From Clostridia bacterium (lineage in GTDB: Bacteria; Bacillota; DAOUPZ01): 64,000 nucleotides of DNA. The stretch spans positions 19,147 to 83,146 of the forward strand of contig DAOUPZ010000018.1 in assembly GCA_030625885.1 (NCBI GenBank). Direction: 5' to 3'. Shown here in pieces: positions 2,574-55,682 of this stretch (positions are counted from its first letter, which is position 1; every line of letters begins with the position of its first letter). A program made the translations under genes and the position numbers. Under the pieces are notes generated by a model. That model was given only the letters and a program-made list of their open reading frames with translations. It was not told the origin of the DNA and made no database searches.

Positions 2574-2733
2574 CAGTTGACAGTTGATAGTGGACAGTTG
2601 ACAGTTAAAAAAACAAAACCATAAAGAAATAAAAATAAATTCTACTTCGCTAGCGAACAATTTGTTGTAAGTTCTTTATATGTCATGCAATAAAGAACTT
2701 ACATTACAGGTTTGCAGGAAAAGCGAAGGAAAG

Positions 2734-4739: not shown

Positions 4740-4991
4740 CTAGTTGTCAATCTCCCTTTACTGTACAATTTATTTTATAAATATGTCTTATCTTATTCTT
4801 ACAAAAACAAAATAGACCTGAAGCATATCTTCTCATGTCATCCCATATATATTATTGGAAAGATTTAAAAAATGCTGAAGGCTGAAAACTGATAGCCAAA
4901 AGCTGAAAACTAAAGATAATGACAAAAGTCTTTTGAATGTTTCTTTAGCCTTTAGCTTTATGCCTTAAGCCATTAATACCTGGAGGAAAAA

Positions 4992-7776: not shown

Positions 7777-8232
7777 ATATATTAGCAGGTAGCTCGTTCC
7801 CTACGGTCACTTGTAGCAGGTAGCAGGTAGGCTTTATTTGATAGGCTCTGCTTTTTCCAATAAAGTTCTTTACTAACCATTAATAAATTATAAAAGCTTC
7901 CTCATAATCTACCACTTATATTTGAAAAGTAATTATTCACAAAACCTTCAAATCTCAACTAACCTTTACTGTAAAGGCTCAGACTTTCTAATTATATCCT
8001 ACCGCCTACCTGCTGGTTGCTACCTGCTTCTTTTATCTTTTCCTACCTGCTGTTCCTTTGTATTTCTTTCTTATTTTACCACATGATGGTTTTTTTATCA
8101 TCTTGAATAATCTTTTTAATATAGTTAACATTTACTATTTCCATTTTACATATTTTTGTTACATACACCTCATAATAATAGTGAATATTTTTGTCAATGT
8201 TTTTCTGTTTAATTGTAAAGGAGGACGTATTT

Positions 8233-11345: not shown

Positions 11346-11465
11346 ATATATTCTTATTCTAATTTTTTCTTCATTCTTATTATTTATTCTTATTATTCGT
11401 TCTTATTATTCATTCTTATTATTCGTTCTTCGTTATTCGTTATTCGTTCCTCTTCATTTTTCTTT

Positions 11466-18832: not shown

Positions 18833-18888
18833 ATGCAATAACGGGGACACACCGCTCGCACCTTACGGAATGTCCCCATTCTTGCATT
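18833..18888 (-). repeat. GGGGACA hairpin repeat, copy 2 (opposite orientation)
   Basis: atgcaataacggggacacaccgctcgcaccttacggaatgtccccattcttgcatt. Confidence 0.9.
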
Positions 18889-19020
18889 AGGGTTTTTATC
18901 ATTCCTCGTTCCTCTTTCAGCGAACGCAGAGAGCGATCTTCCCTCTATCCTTTAACCGTCAACTATCAACTATCAACTGTTCTTTTAAGTCTTTTCCTAC
19001 CTGCTGATTGCTACCTGCTC

Positions 19021-19878: not shown

Positions 19879-20235
19879 TCCCCTTCTTTATGATATTATA
19901 TAAATTTTGCTATTTGGCTAGTCCATTTATTATCAATAACCTTAATTATACAACAAAATTCCCCTTTTGAAAAATATTTCCTCTTTCAGCGAACACAGAG
20001 AGCGATTTTCCCTCTATCCTTTAATCATTAATCTTTCCCTTTAAGCTGATAACTAATAACTGATAGCTGAAATGTCTTTAATCGTTATTCGTTCCTCGTT
20101 CAGCAACCAAAGAGAGCGATCATTCCACTATCTTTTAATTGTGAATTATTAATTGTTTCTTCCTTCTTTTATCACAATATGACATAAACGAATATAATAA
20201 ATCATCATTAGCCATGATTGGGAGGTGAACGCCTA

Positions 20236-21072: not shown

Positions 21073-21155
21073 AATTTAAACCAATTTTTGTTCTTTATTC
21101 TTCTAATTTTCAATTCTAAAATTTCAATCTTCAATTTCATAGGAGGCGGTTTGTA

Positions 21156-21530: not shown

Positions 21531-21735
21531 TTTTTCAGCCTGATAAGTTAATTTTTCTATCAGCAAAGTTTATATCTGAACATAGTTGTCCTACCAACTA
21601 TAGGTAAGTGGTAAGTAGCAAGTAAGAAAAAATCCCACTTACTACTTACCACTTACCATTTCCCACTTGACAAATAATAGTCAACGCTATTTTTCTTATC
21701 TAAACTATAGTACTTGCACACATTTATTTATTAAT

Positions 21736-23286
21736 CTATTGCCCTCGTTTTCTGCAGGGGATAAATAATTGCTGTCCGGGGAAAATCAAGTCTGGATCAT
21801 CAATATCATTGGCATCCACAATATCAGCCACTGTGATACCATATTTAGCTGCAATATTCCACAATGAATCCCCCGTCTGAACAATATAGAACCGCATGCT
21901 GGGCCATTCTTCGCATTCATATTTATCGGGTTTTTTATCTTCTTCCGAAACCTCATCGTATTTTACATCCGTAACAACATACATTTTCGTGGTTTCTGTT
22001 ACACTCACAAATATTTGGCATTCTATTTTATAGGTAATCGTATTACCATCTTCTAATTCATGATCAACATCTAGAATATTGGTTTTAATAGATGCATTCA
22101 TACCTGCCTTTGCACATGGAACCTCTACGGTCTCCATAAATTCTTTCTTAGACGTCTTTTGACAAACCTCATCATCCTCATTAACATAATATATTTGCTG
22201 CAACAATACGCCGGAAACAATCACTTTATCATCTAGGACACTGGTATTTTGGTAGTTAATTTGAATTTCTTGGTCGACATCCATAATTTCTTTAGCATTT
22301 TCATACAGTGTAATATCCCCATCAAACATATAAGTTGTTTGTTGCTCACCGATCATATTTTCTACTTTTAATAACTCTTTCTCTACAGTAATTCCTTCTC
22401 CTTCAACATCTGTAACCACAGAAATCTGAAAACATTCTGTTACTTTTGTATAGACTTCTAGTACAACCGCAAGTTTGACCTGATCACCGTCCGCCTCGTA
22501 TTCCACATCCTCTACTTGCGTTTCTACCATTCCATTCATACCAGCACGAGCCCCTAATACTTTTACATATTTTACAAATGGTTCCTCAATGTCATAATGT
22601 TTCATCTCATCTTCTTCATTAACGTAGTATACATCCATATAAACTGTGCCCTTAACAATGACTTGATCGGTTAGTATTTCAACGCCTTCTTCTTCTATCA
22701 TCACTTCTACATCAACGTCTTTAACTGTTTTTACTGTTTCGGGGAAAGTGTACTCTTTCATGATTTCTGCTAAAGTTGTACTTTCACCAATTATGTTTTC
22801 TGCTTTCAACATATTGGTTTCTACTTGCGCATTAGGGCAATTGATATCTGTTACAACATTAACCTGCATCGCATCAAACACTTTTACGTTTAATTCTAGT
22901 AATTTCTTTTCTTCAACAATACGTCCATCAATCATAAAATCAACATCCACCACACGGGCAGCAACATGAACATCCATCCCCGGTTGGGCGCCGGGAACAT
23001 CTACATAATGCGTGAATTCAGTATCTACTTCCTGTTGCTTACAAACATCATCTTCATTCATCCAAGATATTTGCTGATATACCAAGCCTTTAACCATTAC
23101 CCGATCTTCAATCACTTCTGTTTCTTCTGACGAAACAATCACATCCATATTATAATCTCTAATGTTTTTCACAGGTTCTTCTAAAGACAGCGTTTTATTA
23201 ATTTCCATTTGTGAAACGACTTCCCCGACTATGCTTTTAACCCGCAGCGTCTTCTTCTCTACTTGAAGTTCATGCCCTTTATCCAT
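21736..23286 (-). CDS. DUF3794 (SPOCS) triple-repeat protein with C-terminal LysM
   Basis: Three homologous SPOCS-like segments and LysM: YIVQTGDSLWNIAAKYGITVADIVDANDIDDPDLIFPGQQLFIP. Confidence 0.9.
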   Translation of the reverse strand: MDKGHELQVEKKTLRVKSIVGEVVSQMEINKTLSLEEPVKNIRDYNMDVIVSSEETEVIEDRVMVKGLVYQQISWMNEDDVCKQQEVDTEFTHYVDVPGAQPGMDVHVAARVVDVDFMIDGRIVEEKKLLELNVKVFDAMQVNVVTDINCPNAQVETNMLKAENIIGESTTLAEIMKEYTFPETVKTVKDVDVEVMIEEEGVEILTDQVIVKGTVYMDVYYVNEEDEMKHYDIEEPFVKYVKVLGARAGMNGMVETQVEDVEYEADGDQVKLAVVLEVYTKVTECFQISVVTDVEGEGITVEKELLKVENMIGEQQTTYMFDGDITLYENAKEIMDVDQEIQINYQNTSVLDDKVIVSGVLLQQIYYVNEDDEVCQKTSKKEFMETVEVPCAKAGMNASIKTNILDVDHELEDGNTITYKIECQIFVSVTETTKMYVVTDVKYDEVSEEDKKPDKYECEEWPSMRFYIVQTGDSLWNIAAKYGITVADIVDANDIDDPDLIFPGQQLFIPCRKRGQ

Positions 23287-24557: not shown

Positions 24558-24687
24558 AATGATATACCTCCTTTTATAATAAAAACCGCTTAATGCCATT
24601 TTTGCAGGTAGCTCGCTCTCTTCGATCGCTTGTAGCAGGTAGGAGGTAGGAAAAAATTAAAAAAGTAAAACTCCAGCATTCACCCAA

Positions 24688-24824
24688 CATCTCTTATCTC
24701 TTATCTCTTATCTCTTATCTCTTATCTTTTTATCTTTTTATCTTTTCCTACCTGCTACCTGCTACCTCCTACCTCCTACCTCCTACCTCCTACCTCCTAC
24801 CTCCTACCTCCTACCTCCTACCTG
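24688..24824. repeat. Composite heptanucleotide tandem array (TCTTATC)n then (CTACCTS)11
   Basis: Direct reading: TCTTATC units, a short 8-nt-spaced stretch, then 24748-24824 = 11 units of CTACCTG/CTACCTC including 8 consecutive CTACCTC. Confidence 0.95.
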
Positions 24825-24838
24825 CTGATTTTATCTTT

Positions 24839-24884
24839 ATTTAAAATAAAGCCAGACCTCTTAAGGCCTGGCTTTATTTTAAAT
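24839..24884 (-). terminator. Long near-perfect palindromic terminator after hup
   Basis: atttaaaataaagccagacct-ctta-aggcctggctttattttaaat, one non-Watson-Crick position. Confidence 0.85.
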
Positions 24885-30223: not shown

Positions 30224-30379
30224 CTCTTCACGCCTCCATTATTTCACTTTATCCTCCTATATTTACGCAATGAGAAGCGGTAATATGCATAATCCTTCAG
30301 TTATTAGCGATCAGCTTAAAGGGAAAATTAATAAGGCTCAAAGGTAAAGGCCAAAGGCTAAAATATCAAGCGCTAAGGC

Positions 30380-38869: not shown

Positions 38870-39299
38870 TTTGTCGCGCCTCCATCACAAAACACCTTAT
38901 TACAAAATATGTATACCCTTCCATTATGTATAATAACAGCAAATTTATTTCAATAATCAAACATTTTTATTAAAAAAATATGAAATTATATGTCATGCAA
39001 TAAAGAACTTACATTGTAGGTTTGCAGAGCCATTCTAAATGTAAAAACAAAACAGTCTGCTGCTTATCCTCCTATATTTACGTGATAAGCAGCAATAATA
39101 TGAAAATCTTTTATAATAAAAAAAATTAAGCAGGTAGCAACCAGCAGATCTTTTCCCTACCTGCTACAGCGAGCAACACAAGCGTGCTACCTGCTTTTAT
39201 TATGAAGAACTTAGAACCCAGAACTAATAATTTCCCACCAAAGTTCTCTATACTTTTTTACCCATTTGTGTTATATTTTTAATAAGAGGGGTAAATATT

Positions 39300-39376
39300 G
39301 TATTAGAAACGAAGATTCATACCTTAGTAACTGGACACCTGAGGGTATGAGGAGTGCGTGGTGTAACCGACTATTC
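39300..39376 (+). ncRNA. Cyclic di-GMP-II riboswitch aptamer (candidate)
   Basis: GAAACGAAGATTCATACCTTAGTAACTGGACACCTGAGGGTATGAGGAGTGCGTGGTGTAACCGAC matches remembered class II core elements GAAAC, AA(C/U)UGG(A/G)CAC and GU..UG(U/C)AACCGAC; TCATACCTTA/TGAGGGTATGA helix and ACACC/GGTGT pseudoknot can form. Confidence 0.8.
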
Positions 39377-55373: not shown

Positions 55374-55682
55374 TCATCACCTTTCCTAACGTATTAATGA
55401 GTTTCTAGCAGTTAGCAGTTAGGAGTTAGGAAAAGATAAAAGATTGGCTAAAGGCTTAAGGGTCAAAGCTAAAAAACAAATATTTAAAATTCTTTTACCT
55501 TAAGCCTTCAACCTATTTTAATCTTTTTTTCCGCGTCCCTATTGTAATTTAAATTTCTTTATTCTTTTCCTAAGAGCTAACTGCTAACTCCTATTCTTTC
55601 TCTTCCCTCTATCTTCCCCTACCTGCTACCTGCTGTTAGCTACCTGCTGTTAGCTACCTGCCAAAGACATCCAAAGGATGTC

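Follow-up and report, generated by a model that had tools for sequence, protein, structure and literature searches.

Intergenic heptanucleotide repeats of a Clostridia bacterium as possible arms of small dispersed stem-loop elements

Why do many different intergenic repeats of one genome advance in steps of seven nucleotides? The question is raised by the locus at positions 24604 to 24830 of a 64,000-nt stretch of a Clostridia bacterium genome (contig DAOUPZ010000018.1; here, the window). According to the original prediction, superficially different repeats across the window all have a period of 7. Autocorrelation bore this out: 7 was the best period among 4 to 12 in 14 of 14 listed tracts, with lag-7 identity of 0.61 to 1.00, and TRF also called period 7 for most of them. 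The period was weak in four, gctgaaa (4870), tttcaat (21101), ttattcg (11390), and aaggcta (30335). The heptad tracts of the window outside the locus are as follows (window positions; evidence in parentheses).

2574 to 2606, plus strand: CAGTTGA array adjoining a terminator-like hairpin (recurrences, TRF, autocorrelation)
4870 to 4912, plus strand: degenerate GCTGAAA heptads (lag-7 identity, 0.64)
7813 to 7830, plus strand: GCAGGTA array (TRF, autocorrelation)
11390 to 11450, plus strand: TTATTCG heptads mixed with a period-13 pattern (TRF, autocorrelation)
18959 to 18978, plus strand: TCAACTA array (TRF, autocorrelation)
20040 to 20070, plus strand: CTGATAA (TAACTGA-type) heptads (autocorrelation)
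21101 to 21140, plus strand: degenerate TTTCAAT heptads (autocorrelation)
21637 to 21668, plus strand: TTACCAC heptads (TRF, autocorrelation)
30333 to 30362, plus strand: degenerate AAGGCTA heptads (TRF, autocorrelation)
39206 to 39226, plus strand: GAACTTA heptads, three copies (autocorrelation)
39469 to 39510, plus strand: array passing from GACAATT to CATAATT in a single register (unit families, autocorrelation)
40504 to 40535, plus strand: AATTTTC heptads (autocorrelation)
42596 to 42624, plus strand: arm GCAGGTA GCAAACA GCAGGTA GCAGGTA, its diverged unit still 7 nt (TRF, spacing table)
42692 to 42724, plus strand: perfect GTGAATT array, 4.7 copies (TRF)
55406 to 55431, plus strand: TAGCAGT arm facing the array at 55619 to 55661 (TRF, facing-cluster analysis, autocorrelation)
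55619 to 55661, minus strand: TACCTGC-type arm facing 55406 to 55431 (TRF)
63467 to 63483, plus strand: GCAGGTA array preceded by a terminator-like hairpin (TRF)

The window also contains a c-di-GMP-II riboswitch aptamer (39296 to 39381, plus strand; Rfam RF01786, 55.3 bits) upstream of the ORF at 39834 to 40262 and a period-18 tandem repeat of five copies (48395 to 48484) inside a coding region or at its edge. Because it encodes a SipL/SPOCS-domain protein with LysM (21736 to 23286), the host is probably of a spore-forming Bacillota lineage.

Exact 7-mer recurrences in the 10 kb of intergenic DNA in the window numbered 154 at lag 7, 116 at lag 14, 81 at lag 21, and 42 at lag 28, with 21 or fewer at any other lag; coding DNA, though five times longer, gave five at lag 7. 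We extended the count to an 812-kb sample (27% of the genome, 123 kb of it intergenic, with ORFs called by a simple longest-ORF rule). There, exact intergenic period-7 arrays with at least about 2.5 copies numbered 59, versus 0.4 expected from an order-3 Markov simulation, these counts being nonindependent where elements are copies of one another. Coding DNA held 6, and intergenic arrays at periods 5, 6, 8, and 9 numbered 7, 4, 5, and 0. With mismatches allowed, 64 intergenic arrays had period 7, and 0, 0, 4, and 0 had periods 5, 6, 8, and 9. No exact intergenic period-7 array was found in 346 kb (42 kb intergenic) from 20 relatives in the phylum. Heptanucleotide arrays exceed statistical expectation for this genome, as long simple sequence repeats do, and the period-7 excess over shuffled intergenic DNA on which the original prediction had staked itself is present in the 27% sample. 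The probability that chance or misassembly produced the arrays is vanishingly small: the genome is a draft of 39 contigs, but the observed and expected counts refute an artefact, backward-read control patterns match nowhere in this genome, and the arrays are short and lie within contigs.

Grouped by unit, the 64 arrays form 24 classes, the commonest being AATTATG, AACTGTC, AATTGAC, AATTCAC, and ACCTGCT. These families form a tight one-step network and are mutually closer than random heptads drawn from the same intergenic DNA (nearest-neighbor distance as small in 0 of 300 random sets), and some arrays change family within one register (e.g., GACAATT to CATAATT at 39469 to 39510). Judged from these sequences, point-mutation descent may account for much of the unit variety. 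"Superficially different" was in this respect an apt wording, although the variety itself appears to be largely a matter of such descent. The original prediction had further proposed a common heptamer generator rather than one repeat sequence. One 7-nt rule, 24 families, and an intergenic setting agree with that proposal, whereas the supposed unrelatedness of the units does not survive the comparison with random sets, nor are the tracts essentially unrelated products of one generator, many being copies of a dispersed, heptad-armed element. As a separate candidate, stop codons were considered as the common feature of the units and rejected: such a codon occurs on at least one strand in 23 of the 24 families (null, 71%; P = 0.002), the families being nonindependent, and directional enrichment occurs only at gene 3′ ends, as the ORF definition forces.

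The strongest structural regularity, missed by the original prediction, is the convergent pairing of arrays. Among GCAGGTA-type clusters no more than 600 bp apart, 37 faced each other, 5 stood back to back (median gap, 580), and 4 pointed in the same direction. A slightly wider search of the 812-kb sample identified 38 facing units of 54 to 287 bp, each bounded by two inward GCAGGTA-type arms, which by extrapolation from 27% would amount to about 145 per genome. The longest alignments between units span 214 to 277 bp at about 69 to 80% identity. Alignment borders lay at most 15 bp from the outer heptad edges at 437 starts and 510 ends and ran more than 15 bp past them at 52 and 123, respectively; homology between element copies tends to stop at the outer arm edges. 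The two arms of a single element can differ in length. The locus at 24604 to 24830 is one of the 38 and is composed of the following.

24604 to 24830, no strand assigned: whole element, two inward-facing heptad arms around an insert of other tandem repeats (sequence, facing-pair class, folding)
24604 to 24650, plus strand: left arm, consisting of GCAGGTA, a hairpin cassette, and then GCAGGTA GGAGGTA GG (sequence)
24614 to 24630, plus strand: 17-nt GTAG-tagged REP-like cassette CGCTCTCTTCGATCGCT within the left arm (spacing table, cassette list)
24689 to 24727, plus strand: perfect ATCTCTT heptad array, 5.6 copies (TRF)
24722 to 24746, plus strand: TTATCTTT array of period 8, departing from the 7-nt rule (TRF)
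24746 to 24825, minus strand: right arm of 11 heptads, TAGGAGG/TAGCAGG on the minus strand (CCTACCTC/G on the plus strand) (TRF with 97% matches, autocorrelation)
24841 to 24881, minus strand: ordinary intrinsic terminator of an HU-type gene (identified by Pfam), just beyond the element (sequence)

The element folds more stably than 200 of 200 shuffled versions (z = −6.4 as RNA and −7.4 as DNA), as is bound to happen with facing arms. It has the stable hairpin of an intrinsic terminator; inspection of the sequence revealed no U-tract directly past either arm end, reading outward.

The arms keep a strict register. GCAGGTA-like units are spaced by 7 (95 cases), 14 (48), or 21 nt (2), and the other spacings (23, 24, 30, 31, and 38) equal a multiple of 7 plus a cassette of 16 to 17 nt, with few exceptions. 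When the cassette at 24614 to 24630 is removed, the left arm of the named element stays in its 7-nt register (spacing 31 = 14 + 17). Even diverged middle units (GCAACCA, GCGAACA, and GCAAACA, for instance) are always 7 nt long. These features bear on the possibility that the arrays are plain independent microsatellites with separate slippage origins, a preferred 7-nt step (polymerase footprint), and no element. In most genomes, heptanucleotides are reported to outnumber all other long repeats, and a footprint mechanism has been proposed (PMC4679880); the units are many, and some window arrays are perfect and isolated (39479 to 39510 and 42692 to 42724). The facing pairs and common borders of the 38 elements count against this explanation as the whole story, and the one-step kinship of families, the fact that even strongly diverged middle units measure exactly 7 nt, and the purine-left polarity described below also speak against it, leaving it unlikely. 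Slippage alone does not account for the strong excess of period 7 over 5, 6, 8, and 9 or for that polarity where the paired heptads are unrelated.

Many arms contain a 16- to 17-nt imperfect hairpin, CGCTCCCTTCGGTCGCT and variants, after GTAG and two bases, and the first base of 35 of 35 cassette-bearing intervals of 30 to 31 nt is the G completing GTAG. A GTAG tag beside a short imperfect palindrome in high copy is the hallmark of GTAG REPs, and terminal inverted repeats bounding a short noncoding element are that of MITEs; the elements described here have both. Flank matches of the facing units were no longer than in random controls, giving no sign of target-site duplication. GTAG REPs and REPINs with RAYT transposases (PMC3733652, PMC3116915) share with our elements the tag, two bases, short stem-loop, inverted pairing, a Y1 transposase in the genome, and the lack of target-site duplication. 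They differ in that our tags are embedded in heptad arrays and our RAYT-like gene is flanked by another palindrome; Firmicutes do not appear among the GTAG REP hosts given in the passage of PMC3733652 used here. MITEs are likewise short dispersed elements with terminal inverted repeats, but here no target-site duplication was found and the terminal repeats are heptad arrays of variable length.

A Y1_Tnp family search returned two Y1 transposase genes in the genome. The RAYT-like one (stretch L236, 1372 to 2310; near 17541 of contig C10) has GGGGACAGTCCC / GGGATTGTCCC palindromes on both sides, and because they flank it so, the GGGGACA family may be its REP; the REP of the heptad arms does not flank it. 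The other (stretch L237) has neither heptads nor the 17-nt cassette nearby. The flanks of both genes rule out heptads or the cassette as the ends of Y1 transposase genes. It is very doubtful that a REP-type single-strand nuclease (RAYT) makes the heptads by acting repeatedly at the GTAG tag in GCAGGTAG arms: the cassettes match GTAG REP anatomy (PMC3733652), two Y1_Tnp genes are present, and target-site duplication is lacking, but the palindrome on either side of the RAYT-like gene is a different one and many heptad families here are without GTAG. Other repeats were seen nearby. REP-like palindromes GGGGACATTCCGTAAGG...CGGTGTGTCCCC lie at about 18833 to 18880, 42735 to 42780, and 46290 to 46325 of the window, with many copies in the sampled genome, often within heptad elements, and a separate 16-bp tandem array, AAAGATAGAATGATTA, of about nine copies stands beside a heptad element elsewhere (stretch L033, 7720 to 7860).

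To place the arrays more broadly, we examined other lineages. CTAMCTS ×4 matched at least 117 stretches from scattered phyla; Cyanobacteria, Bacteroidota, Clostridia, Selenomonadaceae, Synergistales, Desulfobacterota, Gammaproteobacteria, Treponema, Neisseriaceae, Planctomycetes, Sulfurovum, and Chloroflexi are among the matches listed. CTAMCTS ×3 matched 49 times in the present genome and not at all in 60 phylum relatives. AGTTAGG ×3 (two mismatches) reached 1,297 matches in a single genome; its backward-read control gave 0 in 18 of 20 genomes and 7 versus 1,297 in Calothrix. In one Sulfurovum genome (G072, reached via L157), the control matched 23 times and the pattern 0 times, and for this reason the genome seems to carry the mirror unit, a GGATTGA heptad family. 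Seven heptad-rich genomes (839 kb), chosen for one heptad pattern but with later stretches mostly fetched regardless of arrays (a few from G068 and G077 lie on contigs, in places near positions, of AGTTAGG ×3 matches), contained 145 period-7 arrays and 1, 6, 8, and 10 at periods 5, 6, 8, and 9. The exact GCAGGTA-family pattern had no match in viral contigs. Selenomonadaceae and Oscillospiraceae genomes had 81 to 289 AGTTAGG ×3 matches, so that "striking in a Firmicute" was too strong a description; a literature search returned no report of Firmicute heptads. Loss of Rho was tried as a predictor of heptad richness and showed no clear link (missing in 4 of 8 heptad-rich genomes versus 9 of 40 relatives).

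In the 839 kb from seven heptad-rich genomes, neighboring arrays less than 300 bp apart had the purine-rich array on the left and the pyrimidine-rich one on the right in 27 cases and the opposite order in 1 (two-sided binomial P ≈ 2 × 10^−7), 9 of the 27 being pairs of unrelated heptads; the other 11 neighbor pairs were of the same type or near neutral. In the present genome, 7 of 7 inverted pairs were purine-left and two unrelated neighbor pairs were opposite. Pattern-selected loci, read by eye, followed the same trend, with 2 exceptions in 41 inverted pairs, both far apart. Array-free intergenic DNA between tandem genes lacked this polarity. With respect to gene context, arrays in the present genome were depleted solely between divergent genes (0.18 per kb versus 0.68 between tandem genes), and the preference for convergent genes that the original prediction had suggested looking for did not emerge, array density being about equal between tandem and convergent genes. 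Elsewhere, 62 to 64% of arrays lay within 10 nt of a 3′ end, many beginning at the stop codon, in part because stop codons lie inside the arrays.

Where a pyrimidine arm follows a purine arm, both strands form a hairpin, and transcription of the second arm gives a weak pyrimidine-RNA:purine-DNA hybrid. For the polarity, selection of paired arms to terminate transcription in both directions or to act as insulators is a rival to be taken seriously, if not a probable one overall; bidirectional termination would account for both the polarity and the depletion between divergent genes. The 27-to-1 bias with its unrelated pairs, the arrays beginning at stop codons elsewhere, the strong folding of the named element, and the convergent GGGAATC pairs of Xanthomonas, few of them between divergent genes (PMC4692102), are consistent with it. 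Against it, the second arm of the named element has no U-tract, ordinary terminator hairpins already stand before several elements in this genome, Rho is not consistently missing from heptad-rich genomes, and the stop-codon starts are partly forced. Scarcity between divergent genes, where regulator sites are expected, also argues against arrays being binding sites of a protein with a 7-nt footprint (a cold-shock protein, S1, or a global regulator). Under selection for register, diverged units would be expected to stay 7 nt long, as they do; Bacillus subtilis CspB binds as one protein per heptamer (cited in PMC4679880), and Geobacter multicopy elements of four to five heptads are predicted to be regulatory (PMC2700814). 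Many unrelated unit sequences exist, however, so no single sequence-specific binder fits, and we regard this explanation as highly improbable. More tentatively, a general and so far undescribed cross-phylum rule may hold, namely, that intergenic heptad arrays form convergent purine-left/pyrimidine-right pairs whatever the heptad and that one shared process or selection repeatedly builds them; bidirectional termination or a REP-type single-strand nuclease at GTAG-like tags would be candidates for that process.

Known repeats resemble these arrays in part. Long heptanucleotide simple sequence repeats, in excess over other periods in scattered genomes (Mrazek et al. 2007, as reported in PMC4679880), are likewise 7-nt tandems with a patchy phylogenetic distribution, whereas here most arrays are paired arms of dispersed elements with fixed polarity. 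The Xanthomonas GGGAATC and Nostoc GGGGA(C/T)T repeats (Rehm 2015, PMC4692102) are intergenic heptads, and GGGAATC forms convergent plus/minus pairs as here (70 and 75 in two Xanthomonas genomes; few pairs in Nostoc); unlike here, each has one G-quadruplex-forming unit, and element borders are not described in the sections used. The TAACTGA repeats of Beggiatoaceae, Cyanobacteria, and Bacteroidetes (MacGregor 2015, PMC4679880), of the same type as the window tract at 20046 to 20070, are also intergenic and sporadic but consist of one unit, usually in direct orientation shortly before start codons, with only one inverted case in BOGUAY. The likeness to cyanobacterial STRR noted in the original prediction is real, in that both are intergenic 7-nt arrays; the present host is not a cyanobacterium, and none of the 24 families sampled has an STRR-like C/G-run unit (Nostoc GGGGATT, GGGGACT). 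Geobacter GGGACCG ×4 and MTYCTGA ×5 (PMC2700814) are dispersed multicopy elements of four to five tandem heptads, as here, but with different units and a predicted regulatory role.

Taken together, the periodicity, pairing, element borders, and register observed in this genome are best explained, with a probability that we put at about 0.5, by small, dispersed stem-loop elements between genes that carry GTAG-tagged REP-like hairpins and whose heptad arms are amplified by slippage and locked in register. Slipped loops of five or more bases largely evade mismatch repair. Most heptad tracts would be arms and inserts of such elements; their arms would gain and lose length by 7-nt slippage in DNA synthesis; copies would spread through recombination or REP-type single-strand transposition and persist at the least harmful sites, after one gene ends and before the next begins; unit families would derive largely from one another via point mutation; and similar arrays would have arisen or been acquired sporadically in many phyla. 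The intergenic-only period-7 excess, facing pairs, arm-edge borders, spacings, one-step families, and the GTAG-tagged cassette in arms together with two Y1 transposase genes argue for this reading, and the lack of target-site duplication above control and the GGGGACAGTCCC palindromes, not heptads or the 17-nt cassette, around the better Y1 gene argue against it.

Bacterial seven-base repeats are already known, and reports of their excess go back to 2007, with no cause generally accepted; their fixed facing arrangement, observed here in unrelated phyla, is little described. Polarity in unrelated heptads and a 7-nt register that survives unit divergence are constraints on any explanation and bring the question within reach of experiments on transcription, on polymerases, and on strain differences.
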